Assembly: GCF_028368935.1 (NCBI RefSeq)
Contig: NZ_JAQNDK010000002.1
Span: 1,240,001-1,304,000, forward strand
Direction of reading: 5' to 3'
Length of the DNA stretch: 64,000 nt
Source: Sorangium aterium
GTDB taxonomy: Bacteria > Myxococcota_A > Polyangia > Polyangiales > Polyangiaceae
Shown: positions 3,515-34,651 of the stretch, one piece after another
How positions within the stretch are numbered: position 1 is the stretch's first letter
Layout: every line of letters starts with the position of its first letter
Translations under genes and position numbers: made by a program
The notes under the pieces: model-generated
The model's input: the letters and a program-made list of their open reading frames with translations, nothing else
Databases searched by the model: none
What the model was told of the DNA's origin: nothing

Positions 3515-4825
3515 CTACCATCCCGACGGCGATAGATTCCATAGGAGTACGTGTTCCTCCCCTGGGGGACGATGTAGGCATCGCAGATCGCCATCCTGGG
3601 AACAAAGGAAGGCTATCCCGCCAGGAAAGAGCTTGGCGAAGGTGGCCGCGGCACGGTGTCGTGAACCGTGTCGTCGCAGCGGGAAGCGTCTGCCTCGTTT
3701 GCCTTCTAGCGTCACTGCTTCGTAAACGGCGAGGGCCGCTTTACTCACCTTGATCGGATACCCGGCGCAGAGGATCTCGAGATCCGGGCCTAGGAGGAGA
3801 GCGTTGTCAACGGTAGATAGCTGACCGATGTTGTCGATGAGCGCGTCGAGCGCGTCCTCAGTTCTCCGCTCGTCATCCTCTGCGACCATGCGCTCGAATC
3901 GATCGTCGTCCGTTATCGGAGCTGTGGACCCGTCAAGCCGCCCGCGGAGGTCCTGGAGGTGCGCACGGCGCAGCGCGAGCTCTGCGGTCTTTGCGGCCAG
4001 CGCGCGACGATGGGCCGGTGGTAGCCGATATTTCCCGAGCGCTGCCTGTCGATCCATCTCTGGGGATTCGGGGAGAAAGGTGATCAGGCCGCCGTGGTTC
4101 CCTGCGGACATCCTCTCGACGAGACCGGCGACGACACGATAGACGGTTGCGTATTGATGTTCTCGGTGGAATGGGTATGGTCGAGGTGACCGATTCACGA
4201 TGCCGGCACAGAGGCGTCGAAGCGCCGACGCGATGATGCTCTCCTGCTCCGACAGGATTCTGAATAGACTGGGTTTGCTGGACAGGTCGACAGCTCCGCC
4301 GCTCTCGTATCGAAACCGCTCTACCCCGTGACGCCATAGCGCCACGTGGCCCGGCCTGCATGAACGCAGTACGATGGATGCTGTTTCTCCTTCCGCAGGG
4401 AGGTGCGTATGCTCGACGCGTCTCGCGAGGCCCTGGATCACGAGCCGGCCGTTGCTCAGACCGACAACGATGGCAGTTCGCGGAAGATCTGCCGCAGGGG
4501 CCACCTTGGCGAGCGTCTTGACGTTGAGCTCGGTGACTCCTGAGCCATGTTCGAACGGAAGGATCTGCCAGGCAGGCATGCGTCCATGACCAACGCCGAC
4601 GAACCGATGTTCGAGCACGTGCTCCAGTCCTTCGATGCCCTGCTCATGGTAGACGACACTCACACGCGTGGCGCTTCCCTCTTCTTTCTCCAAGCTGGCA
4701 AAAAAGACGGTGTCGATCAGCTTGCCGAGAAGACGCACGTTCTTTTCGTCGTTCTGCGCTTCCGGGATTGATCGCAGCCACGCCTTGAGGGCTTCGCGTG
4801 GGTACTGCAGGCGTGCGTCGCTCAT
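3515..4825 (-). CDS. Protein with divergent diadenylate cyclase (DAC/DisA_N-like) C-terminal domain
   Basis: 436 residues, no signal peptide or membrane segment. The last 100 residues resemble the DAC fold that condenses two ATP into c-di-AMP. TVDNALLLGPDLEI (about 338-351) corresponds to the DGA block and HGSRHRAAATFA (about 386-397) to the GTRHRAA block, followed by a strand and SQDGD where DisA-type proteins have the SEETG segment. Asn replaces Gly in DGA and Ser replaces Thr in GTRHR, but the Asp and the RHR core are kept. The N-terminal 330 residues are not recognised by me; they could be a sensor region of the DACNV/DACNG kind described for stand-alone DAC-like proteins. ATG 4825 is preceded by GAGG. 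Convergent with the phosphoesterase. Activity is inferred, not shown. Confidence 0.6.
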   Translation of the reverse strand: MSDARLQYPREALKAWLRSIPEAQNDEKNVRLLGKLIDTVFFASLEKEEGSATRVSVVYHEQGIEGLEHVLEHRFVGVGHGRMPAWQILPFEHGSGVTELNVKTLAKVAPAADLPRTAIVVGLSNGRLVIQGLARRVEHTHLPAEGETASIVLRSCRPGHVALWRHGVERFRYESGGAVDLSSKPSLFRILSEQESIIASALRRLCAGIVNRSPRPYPFHREHQYATVYRVVAGLVERMSAGNHGGLITFLPESPEMDRQAALGKYRLPPAHRRALAAKTAELALRRAHLQDLRGRLDGSTAPITDDDRFERMVAEDDERRTEDALDALIDNIGQLSTVDNALLLGPDLEILCAGYPIKVSKAALAVYEAVTLEGKRGRRFPLRRHGSRHRAAATFAKLFPGGIAFLCSQDGDLRCLHRPPGEEHVLLWNLSPSGW

Positions 4826-30030: not shown

Positions 30031-30873
30031 ATGACCCAGACATTCACACTCCGGCGCGATGTGGCGGCGCAGCACGTCGACGTCGCGCCGGGCGGCGAGA
30101 TCGTCCTTCGCGGCAAGCTGGTCTGCTCGACCGACGCCTCGGTCATCGACGCGGCGACGACGACCTGGCCCGCGGGCGCGCCGGGCGGCGCGTCGGTCGA
30201 CAGCGGCGGGCTCGTCGACCTCGAGCAGGGCGGCTTCCACATGACGAGCCGCGACCCCGCGACCCACGAGGTCCACGCCATCGCGACCGGGGATCCAGCC
30301 CCCGCGTGCGCGCTCGCGGGCGTGGAGGCCCCGTGCCTTCCGCTCCGGCTCCTGCCGCTCGCGCGCTCGCGGCTCCAGACGGCGCAGGAGCTGGGCAGCT
30401 GCCTTCGCGGGGGCATCACGGTCGAGGTGCCGGACGCCGTGCTCCCGCCCGTCGCGCCCGCGGCCGTTCCTTATGTGCAGGGCGCGGCCGTGCTGCTCGG
30501 CGCCTCCGTGCTCGCGTCGATCGGGTGGGTCGTGCAGCGCCGGCGCGCCCGATCGCCGCGCGGCCGCCTGCTCGATCTTGCGAAGCGCACCCGGGCCAAG
30601 CTGAGGGCCGCTGACGCGGTCGTGGCCGCGCCGCTCGTGCCGGCCGTGGAGGCCGCGCTGGGCGCGCTGAAGCGGCGGCGTGTGGACGCCGCCTCGACGG
30701 AGGGCAAGCGGGTCGCTGAGGTGCTGCGGCGGGTGGAGCTGCGCCTCGACGCGTCGGCCGTGGAGGCGCGCGCCGACAGGGAGCAGCAGGCGGCGGACGA
30801 GCTCGTCCGTGAGATCGAGAGCGCGCTCGAGGCGGTCGACGAGGTGGACGGCGCGCGGCGCGGGCGGGCCTGA
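30031..30873 (+). CDS. Hypothetical single-pass membrane protein with C-terminal coiled coil
   Basis: 280 residues, family not recognised. The N-terminal 145 residues look like a beta-rich domain (VLRGKLVCSTDASVIDA, MTSRDPATHEVHAI), followed by one TM segment (about 149-170, AVPYVQGAAVLLGASVLASI in part), a basic stop-transfer cluster QRRRARSPRGR and an Ala/Arg/Glu-rich helical tail of about 90 residues. The start is ATG 30031. Follows the VWA lipoprotein on the same strand; its stop is directly followed by a transposase fragment. Confidence 0.65.
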   Translation: MTQTFTLRRDVAAQHVDVAPGGEIVLRGKLVCSTDASVIDAATTTWPAGAPGGASVDSGGLVDLEQGGFHMTSRDPATHEVHAIATGDPAPACALAGVEAPCLPLRLLPLARSRLQTAQELGSCLRGGITVEVPDAVLPPVAPAAVPYVQGAAVLLGASVLASIGWVVQRRRARSPRGRLLDLAKRTRAKLRAADAVVAAPLVPAVEAALGALKRRRVDAASTEGKRVAEVLRRVELRLDASAVEARADREQQAADELVREIESALEAVDEVDGARRGRA

Positions 30874-30885
30874 GGTCGACCAGCC

Positions 30886-31188
30886 CCGCCGGAGGTCTGC
30901 GCGACGCTGCTGTCGCGCGGCGTCCATCTCGCCTCCATCCGCGCGATGTACCGGCTGCTCGCCGCCTCCGGCGAGCGCGGCGAGCGGCGCGCCCAGCGTG
31001 CGCCGATGAAGCACGCCAAGCCGACGCTCACCGCTACGGCCCCCAACCAGATCTGGACGTGGGACATCACCGGGCTGCGCGGGCCGCTGCCTGGGGTCTT
31101 CTACTGCCTGTACGTCGTCCTCGACCTGCTCAGTCGCATGACCGTCGGCTGGAGCCGGAACGCGCCTCTCTGCGCGATCCACTCATAG
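30886..31188 (+). pseudogene. Truncated IS3-type transposase (rve/DDE integrase fragment)
   Basis: About 90 residues of a transposase orfB: PEVCATLLSRGVHLASIRAMYRL, then PNQIWTWDITGLRGP with the first catalytic Asp in the TWDIT motif, then YVVLDLLSRMTVGW. The N-terminal helix-turn-helix part and the remaining DDE residues are missing, and after VGW the frame runs into unrelated sequence. No terminal repeats are visible. It borders the lower-GC xylanase locus, so it marks a past insertion. Confidence 0.8.
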
Positions 31189-31513
31189 GATTCTCGTCCG
31201 GCCTGTCTCAGTCCTGTTGGCATTTTCCGCTCCCTCTGTGCCAATGTTGGATGAGAAACACGAGCAATGAAACCGCGCAAAATGGCGTTGTGTCGCGGTC
31301 GCTTCATGGCGTATAAATCTAGTCGAAGGACCACATGATCTTCCAGGGAGAGCATGGGTGTCCGGATAAGGTTTCGGACTCTGCGAATGGCACTACGTGA
31401 TCCTGTGTGATCAGTTGCGAATGTCGTTGTCTCCCCTGGTCTCAATGCGCGACAGAGAGTCCCTGACAGGCGAGTCGCTTCGTGTGCATCTTCGGGAAAC
31501 ATTGGAAACATCT
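31189..31513. other. Lower-GC leader region of the xylanase gene
   Basis: 325 bp clearly richer in A/T than the rest of the window (for example GCGTATAAATCTAG near 31308-31321). A TTGGCA...TGCCAA inverted repeat is at about 31217-31244 and TGATC occurs twice near 31400. Probably brought in with the xylanase gene; holds its promoter. Confidence 0.5.
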
Positions 31514-32959
31514 ATGAAAAATTCAAAGCAGAATCAGTTCTCTCGTTGGTTCATACTGGCGTTCGCGTCAGTCGCGCTGGCAGCCTGTGGCGGTGATGAC
31601 GATACCACAGGGCCCTCGAGCAGCTCATCGTCTTCTAGCAGCTCTTCATCCTCCAGCTCTAGCTCGTCTTCTAGCAGCTCTAGCTCGTCTTCTAGCAGCT
31701 CTAGCTCGTCTTCGAGCAGCTCCAGCTCGTCTTCTAGCAGCTCCAGCTCATCTTCGAGCAGCTCCAGCTCGTCTGGCGGCGATCTCGCATTGGTGGTCGC
31801 CATTGACTCCGGTAGTAGTTCGAGTTCAATGGTTGATGGCGTAGAGTACCAGGCGGACAAATACTCTGGCGGTGGTTCGACCAACAGCACGCAAGACTCT
31901 GTCGTTGGTGGGCAGCTTTATCAAACAGAGCGGTATGGTTCGTTCAAGTATGAAGTCCCGGTTACTGCCAATGGCAAATACACCGTGAAGTTGCATTTTG
32001 CGGAAATCGATAAAACCAGCGCTGGTTCGCGCAAGTTTAGCGTTGCGGTTGAAGGCAACACGGTTGTCAATGATCTGGATATTTATGCCGAGGTTGGTCA
32101 TGACGTGGGCTACACGGAGACCTTCGCGGATATTGCGGTGAATGACGGCAGCGTCACGATTGAGCTGATTAAGGGTGTGGAGAGCCCGACCATCGCAGGA
32201 TTTGCTATTTTCTCCAACGATGGAGAGTTGGATACGACGGTCACGCCCGACCCCCTCCCCGATTTCTCCAAGTACTCAGCCTACACTCAGCAATACACTG
32301 AGAAGACCGTGATCAATTCGAATCACGCGACGGGCCACGTCGGTGAGTTCTTCTTCACTCACTGGAAAGACGGCGGCTCTACGTCTTTGACCGTGGACCC
32401 GAATGGCGAATTCAGCGTGACCTGGCAGGGCGGCGGCTATAACTATGTCGGTGGTCCAGGATGGCATTACGGAGATGAGAAGAGGGTGATCGGCTACCGC
32501 CTCAATAACGATAGCGGCGCGAGCTATATCGCTTTGTACGGCTGGGGGTACGACAAGACCATGCCCACTTCCAACGCGGCACACCTGGTGGAGTATTACA
32601 TCCTGCAGCGATGGAGTTATGATCCCAGCCAGGGCGCTACCGCTGGCAAGACCTTCACGAGCGATGGAGTTCAGTATTCCACGTACCGCTCGACGCGGCA
32701 GCAGCAGCCCTCTATCAATGGTCGCTCCACCTTCTACCAATACTGGAGCAAGCCTGCTCAGCCGCAGGCTCTCGGGCAGGATCACAAGATCGTATTCGCC
32801 GATCACGTGAAGGCATGGGCCGACAACGGCTGGATCCTTCCGAACACGAACAACCTGGACGCGAGCGACGATCCCACCTATCAGGTCCTGGCCGTCGAGG
32901 TGTTCAACCCCGGTAGCAATGGAACTGCGTCTGGTCGCGTCTGGAACGCGACGCCCTGA
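31514..32959 (+). CDS. Secreted lipoprotein: poly-Ser linker, malectin-like domain, GH11 endo-1,4-beta-xylanase
   Basis: 481 residues. Lipobox LAAC (Cys25); 53 consecutive serines (35-87); a malectin/CBM57-like domain (about 95-230: QLYQTERYGSFKYEVPV, VKLHFAEI, VEGNTVVNDLDI); and a GH11 jelly-roll from about 255 to the end (GEFFFTHWKDGGS, WQGGGYNYVGGPGW, YIALYGWGYD). The two catalytic glutamates are recognisable as E360 (LVEYYI) and E462 (QVLAVEVF). Hydrolyses xylan outside the cell. Poly-Ser linkers are typical of plant-cell-wall-degrading gammaproteobacteria such as Cellvibrio. Codon use is far less GC-rich than in flanking genes and a transposase stub lies upstream, so transfer is likely. 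Weak GGAA ribosome-binding site. Confidence 0.9.
   Translation: MKNSKQNQFSRWFILAFASVALAACGGDDDTTGPSSSSSSSSSSSSSSSSSSSSSSSSSSSSSSSSSSSSSSSSSSSSSSSSSSSSSGGDLALVVAIDSGSSSSSMVDGVEYQADKYSGGGSTNSTQDSVVGGQLYQTERYGSFKYEVPVTANGKYTVKLHFAEIDKTSAGSRKFSVAVEGNTVVNDLDIYAEVGHDVGYTETFADIAVNDGSVTIELIKGVESPTIAGFAIFSNDGELDTTVTPDPLPDFSKYSAYTQQYTEKTVINSNHATGHVGEFFFTHWKDGGSTSLTVDPNGEFSVTWQGGGYNYVGGPGWHYGDEKRVIGYRLNNDSGASYIALYGWGYDKTMPTSNAAHLVEYYILQRWSYDPSQGATAGKTFTSDGVQYSTYRSTRQQQPSINGRSTFYQYWSKPAQPQALGQDHKIVFADHVKAWADNGWILPNTNNLDASDDPTYQVLAVEVFNPGSNGTASGRVWNATP
31616..31774 (+). repeat. Poly-serine tract with 21-bp periodicity
   Basis: 53 serine codons in a row, mixing AGC, TCG, TCT, TCC and TCA. From about 31673 a 7-codon unit (AGC AGC TCT AGC TCG TCT TCT) repeats with small changes. 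Linker between lipid anchor and carbohydrate-active domains. Confidence 0.95.
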
Positions 32960-32965
32960 TCCAAT

Positions 32966-32999
32966 GCCTCGATGGCGCCGTGCTCGACGCCATCGAGGC
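32966..32999 (+). terminator. Hairpin after the xylanase gene
   Basis: Perfect 12-bp stem (32966-32977 with 32988-32999) and a 10-base loop, beginning 7 bases after the xylanase stop and lying between two convergent genes. No T-tract. Confidence 0.5.
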
Positions 33000-33123
33000 T
33001 CTCCGCTTCGCTCCGACCCGCTTCGCGGGCGCCCTTTCGGGCGGCCTCCGCCCAACAGCCGGCGCCGACCGACGGTGCCGAGCGATTCGCGCGCGTGCCC
33101 GCCGCAAGGCCGCGACGCGTCGC

Positions 33124-34443
33124 TCAGCGGATCGGGCCGGCGATCTCCGGGTGCGGCGCCGGGGCCGCCTTCGCCGCGGGCTCGAGCGGCGCGCAGCCGT
33201 CGGCGGCGAAGGGGCCGATCGCCGGATCGCCCTTGACGAACGCCGAGACGCGGCGCATCCGCTTGGCGAACGCAGCCTCGGTCTCGGCGCGCCGGGGGTC
33301 GGCCGCGAGCGGGACGGTCCCGAGGCCCTCGCTGCGCACGGGGCAGATCTCCGCGAGGGGCGGCGCGCCCCGCCGCAGGCGCAGGCGCGCAAGCATCGCG
33401 AGCTCGACCGCGGGGCCGGTCCTCTTCACCTTCATGAGGAAGTTGCCGAGGCTGTAGAAGATGGGCCGGCCGCGGCGGAGCTCGATGCCCTGGAGCACGT
33501 GCGGGTGGTGGCCGACGAAGGCGTCGGCGCCCGCGTCGATGGCGGCGCCGGCGAGCGCGCGCGCCTGAGGGAGCGGGGTGTCCAGGTACTCGGTGCCGCC
33601 GTGGTAGCTCACGACGACAGCGTCCACGCCGGGCTGCTTGCGCGCGGCGCGCACCGCGGCGGCGAGCCCGTCCCGCTCCGCGCCCGCGACGAACTCCCGC
33701 GCCGGGTGCTGCCAGAGCGAGCCCTGGTTCCAGATGCCGGTCACGGCGAGCAGCGCCACGCGGAAGCCGCGGCGCTCGATGATGGCCGGCGTGTACGCCT
33801 GGAGCCGCGTCCGGCCGGCGCCCACGTAGGCGACGCCCGCGCGCTCCAGATGGCCGAGCGTCTCGAGGAACGCGCCCTTGCCGTAGTCCCACATGTGGTT
33901 GTTCGCGAGCGACACGACGCCGATGCCGGCGCGCGCGAGCGCGTCTGCGCCGGCCGGAGGGCCCGTGAACACGAGCGGATGGCGCGCGTGCTGGGTCTCT
34001 CCGCCCTGGTCGCTGAGCTGGTTCTCGAGGTTGACGAAGCGCACGTCGGCGGACGCGAACAGGGCCGCGACGGAGGCGAACGGATCGTACGCCGGATCGC
34101 GGAGCAGCTCCTGGCCGAGCGCCTTGCCGAGGCAGACGTCGCCGCCGGCGAGGAACGTGATCGCGGCGGTGGCGTCTGCCGGCGCGGCGGTGGCGGCCGG
34201 CGCGGCGGTGGCGTCTGCCGGCGCGGCGGTGGCGGCCGGCGCGGCGATGGCGTCTGCCGGCGCGGCGCGGGCCTCCCGGGTCGCTTCCGCGACGTCGCGG
34301 GGCGCGGCCGGCGCGACGATGGGCGGAGGCGCGAGCCCGGCGCCCACGTTGGCAGGCCGCTCGCAGCCGATCTGCGCGGCCGCTGCGCACATCGCGAGGA
34401 AGAAAGGGGCAGGGCGCATCGCGAGCGGCGTCTCTGCGCGCAT
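33124..34443 (-). CDS. CapA/PgsA-family lipoprotein (poly-gamma-glutamate capsule-type metallophosphatase fold)
   Basis: 439 residues. Lipobox near QIGC following a signal peptide; Ala/Pro-rich linker with a 39-bp coding repeat (about 34168-34265); then the PGA_cap domain: FLAGGDVCLG, NLENQLSD, SLANNHMWDYG, YHGGTEYL, GHHPHVLQGIE, FYSLGNFLMK. This calcineurin-related family is linked to poly-gamma-glutamate export and wall or capsule metabolism, but many members have no known substrate. ATG 34443 or 34419 could be the start. No capB/capC genes are nearby, so a capsule role is doubtful. Confidence 0.87.
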   Translation of the reverse strand: MRAETPLAMRPAPFFLAMCAAAAQIGCERPANVGAGLAPPPIVAPAAPRDVAEATREARAAPADAIAAPAATAAPADATAAPAATAAPADATAAITFLAGGDVCLGKALGQELLRDPAYDPFASVAALFASADVRFVNLENQLSDQGGETQHARHPLVFTGPPAGADALARAGIGVVSLANNHMWDYGKGAFLETLGHLERAGVAYVGAGRTRLQAYTPAIIERRGFRVALLAVTGIWNQGSLWQHPAREFVAGAERDGLAAAVRAARKQPGVDAVVVSYHGGTEYLDTPLPQARALAGAAIDAGADAFVGHHPHVLQGIELRRGRPIFYSLGNFLMKVKRTGPAVELAMLARLRLRRGAPPLAEICPVRSEGLGTVPLAADPRRAETEAAFAKRMRRVSAFVKGDPAIGPFAADGCAPLEPAAKAAPAPHPEIAGPIR

Positions 34444-34651
34444 TATCCACGGGCCCGCGGCCACGCCCAAGTATCCGGTGGTACGCCCGCAGACGTTCGT
34501 GCCACCATCGCCGCGCGTTGAGCAGGCCCAGAGGAGCCGCGGCGTCGATCGGCGGCCGCGCTCCCTCGATGGATGTCCGGCCCGCTCCAGCGCGATCTAC
34601 GCCGGATTGGACGCGCGCTCGTGCGCGGGTTGCTTGGAAGGTCTTATCTCC

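Follow-up and report, generated by a model that had tools for sequence, protein, structure and literature searches.

The genome of Sorangium aterium carries a xylanase gene that departs from its surroundings in base composition and adjoins the stub of a transposase, which raises the question of where this gene came from, when it arrived and how it reached its present place. An earlier note on this DNA had proposed a recent transfer of a plant-cell-wall enzyme from a gammaproteobacterium. We analyzed a window of 64,000 nt from the 13.47-Mb genome (G000), with five congeneric Sorangium genomes (G001-G005) for comparison, including those of Sorangium cellulosum So0157-2 (G001; xylanase locus L010) and So0008-312 (G004; locus L009). 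Taken together, the data make it probable that the locus records an old import of an exo-type GH11 gene, which was kept within Sorangium and has changed sites there beside IS debris.

Results

The xylanase gene and its surroundings

The gene and its neighbors comprise the following features, given in window coordinates:

30031-30873, + strand: native left neighbor gene, with an ortholog in G001-G004
30875-31152, + strand: remnant of an IS3-type element, element positions 733-1011 (orfB rve fragment), starting within 2 bp of the left gene's stop
31153-31230, + strand: right end of this IS3-type element, element positions 1629-1707; an internal deletion has removed about 617 bp between it and the preceding fragment
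31232-31256, + strand: remaining left end of another copy of the element, arranged head to tail with the first and separated from its right end by one T
31294-31357, + strand: leader piece conserved with the G002 and G004 copies (sequence comparison)
31353-31498, + strand: putative end of another IS in place of most of the leader (84% identity to G002 C1:10813325-10813471)
31514-32959, + strand: xylanase gene, 481 aa (ORF translation and profile search)
31514-31588, + strand: putative lipoprotein signal peptide with a lipobox-like motif ending at Cys25 (by-eye reading of the translation)
31616-31774, + strand: 53-residue poly-Ser linker, residues 35-87, a 21-bp tandem repeat
31793-32173, + strand: malectin domain PF11721, residues 94-220 (E 2.7e-30)
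32345-32929, + strand: GH11 catalytic domain PF00457, residues 278-472 (E 2.6e-40)
32966-32999, + strand: hairpin directly 3′ of the stop codon, 15-nt arms, 93% complementary
33124-34470, - strand: native right neighbor, PGA_cap, with an ortholog in G001-G005

The malectin profile scored 105.9 bits (cut-off 23) and the GH11 profile 138.4 bits (cut-off 27), and the Ser run is encoded by 5.8 tandem copies of the 21-bp repeat with 94% matches; the poly-Ser malectin-GH11 architecture described in the earlier note is thus present in full. The product would be a surface lipoprotein, with the Ser linker holding the malectin and GH11 domains away from the cell. The hairpin after the stop codon is a possible terminator, and a terminator scan returned no terminator-like site at that position. 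The PGA_cap protein on the right (33124-34470, - strand) has a sub-threshold match to the lasso peptide Trp epimerase MslH (94 bits, cut-off 700).

The A/T-rich character ascribed to this stretch was borne out, as was its deviant codon usage. In 500-base windows, GC content was 0.53-0.60 across 31000-32999, compared with 0.67-0.82 in the remaining windows of 26-38 kb and 0.70-0.78 in the nearest ones on both sides. The GC3 of the xylanase gene is 0.674, vs. a mean of 0.911 (sd 0.065) in 37 other ORFs of the window, which were picked by length and GC3 bias so that host GC3 is somewhat favored. Within the gene, the malectin part has the lowest GC3 (0.589) and the GH11 part reaches 0.741. TCT accounts for 28% of Ser codons in the poly-Ser run and 17% in the rest of the gene, vs. 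4% in the host ORFs. One of these 37 ORFs (3518-4825, - strand), with a DACNV sensor domain, has a similarly low GC3 of 0.665 and is perhaps foreign too.

The leader of the gene has been altered in the window. A stretch just before the ATG is common to G001-G004. In the window, other sequence (31353-31498) has taken the place of most of this leader and ends about 15 bp short of the ATG, with GGAAA still present ahead of the start codon. In G002, the counterpart of this sequence lies at the left border of a DDE_Tnp_1 transposase ORF and extends into its start, and we read it as the putative left end of that IS.

Enzyme type

Among the best 60 of 127 PDB matches, three exo-beta-1,4-xylanases (7l1w, 7l1z, and 5vqj) scored 388-406 bits, the next match scored 102 bits and the remaining ones no more than that. 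Residues 250-481 of the xylanase align with 7l1w without gaps. Glu360 and Glu462, which are invariant in all 12 aligned rows, correspond in the alignment, by an offset of 262, to Glu98 and Glu200 of 5VQJ, reported as nucleophile and proton donor, respectively (PMC5667448). For this enzyme, compost21_GH11, xylobiose is reported as the sole product, and two extra loops are described, EL1 and EL2, of which EL2 blocks subsite -3 (PMC5667448). At the level of sequence, the ungapped 7l1w alignment and the branch of the exo group in the GH11 tree (100/100) support the presence of both loops in the window enzyme; an AlphaFold2 model built from the 12-row alignment was too poor to show their shape (mean pLDDT 45.2). 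At the position of Phe186, a residue of 5VQJ packed in EL2, the window enzyme has Leu448; G001, G002, and G004 also have Leu, and G003 has Met. Judging from these alignments, exo-xylanase activity is likely, and the GH11 domain would clip xylobiose off the non-reducing ends of xylan and xylooligosaccharides.

Relatives and phylogeny

Scanning for exact matches to short stretches of the xylanase protein, an approach that reaches close relatives only, yielded 11 of them: two from Sorangium, eight from Gammaproteobacteria and one from Saprospirales. The eight gammaproteobacterial GH11s are 62-75% identical. All nine non-Sorangium relatives possess a GH11 domain and lack both malectin and the Ser run (by their translations, with Pfam on two of the nine), and a search of their nine genomes for the malectin domain gave no match at E 1e-5. 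When 289 genomes of the class Polyangia were sampled, the exo type occurred in three, all of them Sorangium (G000, G001, and G003; G002 and G004 were not among the matches of this sample), and other hits were at most 49% identical. The best match to the malectin domain within the class outside the genus was also 49%, and no malectin donor was found in the class sample or in the genomes of the nine GH11 relatives.

In an unrooted tree of 50 rows, from which L079-L081 (repeats of Sorangium exo sequences) were left out and in which some other genes stand twice, the five Sorangium copies grouped with nine others and 7l1w (100/100), far from the 34 ordinary GH11 rows of the class. The nearest row outside this group is L091, another GH11 of So0157-2. 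Inside it, the five Sorangium rows are paraphyletic to the other exo rows with weak support (93/90 and 90/57), and a tree holding them together was not rejected by the AU test (p = 0.487). Uniting the five exo rows in one clade with the genus's other GH11s (nine rows, seven distinct genes), a group named after the tree had been seen, was rejected by the same test (p = 4e-7). In G002, a second GH11 gene (L041, a relative of L091) lies about 3.5 kb upstream of the exo-xylanase, in a native block.

Composition, tree and distribution, with the exo type confined to the genus among the 289 class genomes, all support a foreign source for the GH11 domain, as had been proposed. The unrooted tree does not fix the direction of transfer, and composition favors import. 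A gammaproteobacterial source can apply at most to the GH11 domain, eight of its nine outside relatives being gammaproteobacterial, and is not supported for the whole enzyme. Since poly-Ser and malectin are absent from all nine, the Ser linker, previously taken as one sign of a Cellvibrio-like donor, is no evidence for these relatives as donors.

Age and distribution within the genus

The xylanase is present in five of the six Sorangium genomes, and none was seen in G005, which is 89% complete. GC3 ranges from 0.58 to 0.69 across the five copies. Pairwise dS between copies is 0.17-0.36 for GH11, and the native flanking genes give 0.22-0.37 (left gene) and 0.12-0.25 (PGA_cap), values that strong codon bias possibly depresses, in which case the xylanase would look older than it is. 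The malectin domain, with a dS of 0.28-0.57 among four copies, lies above the native range; it is absent from the So0157-2 copy (L010:6001-6972), which has kept the poly-Ser linker. Since xylanase dS is near that of the native genes, the gene would date back to roughly the time when these species separated, and a GH11 dN/dS of about 0.10-0.26 points to purifying selection. The order of pairs by dS differs from that of the flanking genes, with G000-G001 as the highest GH11 pair, which leaves room for exchange within the genus. The gene is thus not confined to a few strains, and its supposed recent acquisition is contradicted both by the five carriers among six genomes and by the comparison with two native genes. 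Massive horizontal transfer has been described in So0157-2, in a paper whose main text contains no word starting with xylan (PMC3696898).

Remnants of an IS3-type element

The truncated IS3 transposase at the border of the stretch is real. Positions 30886-31188 constitute an rve (IS3 orfB) fragment at 32.5 bits, just below the cut-off of 32.6, and share 94% identity with a portion of the 1707-bp element found intact in a congener (L049 in G003). The orfA (HTH_Tnp_1) and orfB (rve) of this intact element both exceed the Pfam cut-off. Three full-length copies from G003 and one from G002 were compared. What is new here is that the xylanase follows remnants of this same element in all five genomes: they lie 50-290 bp upstream of the gene, in the same orientation and differently decayed in each, and long remnants occur on that side only. 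A junction of right end, one T and left end is seen in three of the five copies (G000, G003, and G004). The promoter scan found no junction promoter of the IS2 kind; it returned one promoter-like site, inside the gene, against a chance expectation of 0.7.

Downstream of the gene, the sole match to the element is weak, 36 bp long and 6.4 kb away in G002, and because of this the locus as it stands is no composite transposon. That candidate was rejected with the IS on one side only in all five copies, traceless loss of a second IS still being conceivable. A search of G000 with element positions 1-379, 515-1011, and 1363-1707 found one other long copy (L002), which is cut at element position 1289 and runs into an IS91/ISCR-like stretch. 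The chimeric ORF at this place (L002:739-1980, - strand) reads from IS3 orfB into an IS91/ISCR-like C-terminus, with Y2_Tnp over its cut-off and NCBIfam scores of 154.1 bits for IS3 (cut-off 160) and 93 bits for ISCR (cut-off 925). Only the G001 xylanase is preceded by a motif typical of the C-terminal part of IS91 transposases; an IS91/ISCR element was rejected as the vehicle, since one copy in five cannot explain all.

Location in different genomes

Only 84 bp in G002 and 27 bp in G003 separate the two sequences that flank the window locus, and the site is empty in both. Conversely, the flanks of the So0157-2 xylanase are 16 bp apart in G000, and the insert between them in So0157-2 is 6.9 kb long and contains more than the xylanase. 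Since the window site is empty in two relatives and the So0157-2 site is empty in G000, the five copies occupy at least three neighborhoods. In G002, the gene comes immediately after a native block that G000, G001, G003, and G004 also possess. The distance to this block is 10 kb in G003, where the xylanase has the opposite relative orientation, and no xylanase occurs within the 20 kb surrounding the block that were read in G000 and G001. The left and right flanks of the G003 xylanase map to separate regions in other genomes, and G002 shares about 0.6 kb downstream of the gene with G004, whose assembly is in 1270 contigs. It is probable from these comparisons that G002 and G003 share one neighborhood, which may be the old one, and G002, G003, and G004 may all hold a single old, scrambled neighborhood.

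Between the left gene and PGA_cap, the interval 30874-33123 resembles an insertion hot-spot. The interval is nearly empty in G002 and G003, it holds other insertions of 11 kb in G001 and 1.7 kb in G004, and other sequence precedes PGA_cap in G005.

Discussion

The history that we consider probable would begin before the sampled species separated, when Sorangium obtained an exo-type GH11 xylanase from a lineage of lower GC. In Sorangium or before, the xylanase would have come to possess the poly-Ser linker and the malectin domain, the latter being lost later or never gained in So0157-2. Its upstream side would have become joined to a head-to-tail pair of the IS3-type element, and the gene would since have been kept by selection. 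In at least two lineages, those of the window and of So0157-2, the xylanase and the decaying IS debris would then have come to lie at places where relatives have an empty site; in the window, this place is between the native left gene and the PGA_cap gene.

Other histories have to be weighed against this one. A recent donation of the complete gene by a Cellvibrio-like gammaproteobacterium would account for the low GC and GC3, the deviant Ser codons and the gammaproteobacterial GH11 relatives at 62-75% identity, and both Saccharophagus and Cellvibrio japonicus are known to have poly-Ser linkers (PMC2386152); such a donation is nevertheless very unlikely, given that five of six genomes of the genus carry the gene with a dS near that of native genes, that malectin and poly-Ser are absent in nine of nine non-Sorangium relatives and that the genomes of these relatives hold no malectin match at E 1e-5. 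The reverse course, with an exo gene ancestral to Sorangium or its relatives and passed on to Gammaproteobacteria, would agree with the weak paraphyly of the Sorangium rows and with a GH11 of the genus (L091) as the nearest outside row. We find it quite improbable, as GC3 is 0.58-0.69 in the five copies vs. a mean of 0.91 for window ORFs and the 289-genome sample of the class yielded the exo type nowhere else. Separate imports of a gene-plus-IS unit into individual Sorangium strains, mutual or from an unsampled source, would explain why the neighborhoods differ among G000, G001, and G002/G003 and why the pairwise dS order is unlike that of the flanking genes. Overall GH11 dS, however, falls within the native range, and the same end-to-end junction in three strains, decayed differently, suggests old common descent, so that such imports appear unlikely.

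A further alternative concerns the relocation step only and is compatible with the rest of the favored history of old import and retention. Chromosome segments may have been rearranged around the gene, for example by recombination between IS copies, which we regard as quite possible, if short of probable. It is in keeping with the flanks of the G003 copy mapping to different places in other genomes, with a shared native block that adjoins the G002 copy (0 kb) and lies 10 kb from the G003 copy, the relative orientation being opposite, and with the full-length IS copies compared in G003 (three) and G002 (one); the 84-, 27-, and 16-bp gaps at the empty sites, on the other hand, fit block insertion better in G000 and G001. 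It is also conceivable, though unlikely, that a reactive right-end/left-end junction captured the adjacent gene and moved it within the genus as a one-sided mobile unit, with no IS opposite. If this were true, an enzyme could be common to a genus and still be without a fixed address.

Under the favored history of an old import, low GC and a transposase stub need not signify recent transfer, for the gene would be old and selected, and it is still foreign in composition. The locus also offers an instance that can be counted: a presumably useful gene sits at different places in different species, and its broken IS neighbor stays with it. Judged by title, literature searches yielded no study concerning this Sorangium gene, and PMC4928363, as far as its available text goes, has nothing on the malectin-GH11 pair beyond a reference.

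Several known systems resemble parts of this locus. In the minicircle junction of IS2, a member of the IS3 family, the right and left ends are abutted with a 1-bp spacer (PMC3219604), as they are in the window; unlike that junction, the window version is a decayed chromosomal relic without a promoter-like site. Malectin-bearing GH11 proteins, with the same domain pair as the window protein, have already been noted in a paper whose main text lacks the terms exo, linker, and Sorangium (PMC7720462). The single-domain exo-GH11s of Cellvibrionaceae and Alteromonadaceae (L011-L017) share with the window protein the GH11 type, at 64-75% identity, and by eye a lipobox-like N-terminus, but have neither malectin nor poly-Ser. 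Compost21_GH11 exo-1,4-beta-xylanase (5VQJ) and 7L1W/7L1Z are likewise similar to the window GH11 in the catalytic Glu pair and in the ungapped fit to 7l1w. In contrast to these enzymes, the window protein has Leu448 where 5VQJ has Phe186 and carries a Ser linker and a malectin domain, adding a polySer-malectin form to the exo-GH11 group.
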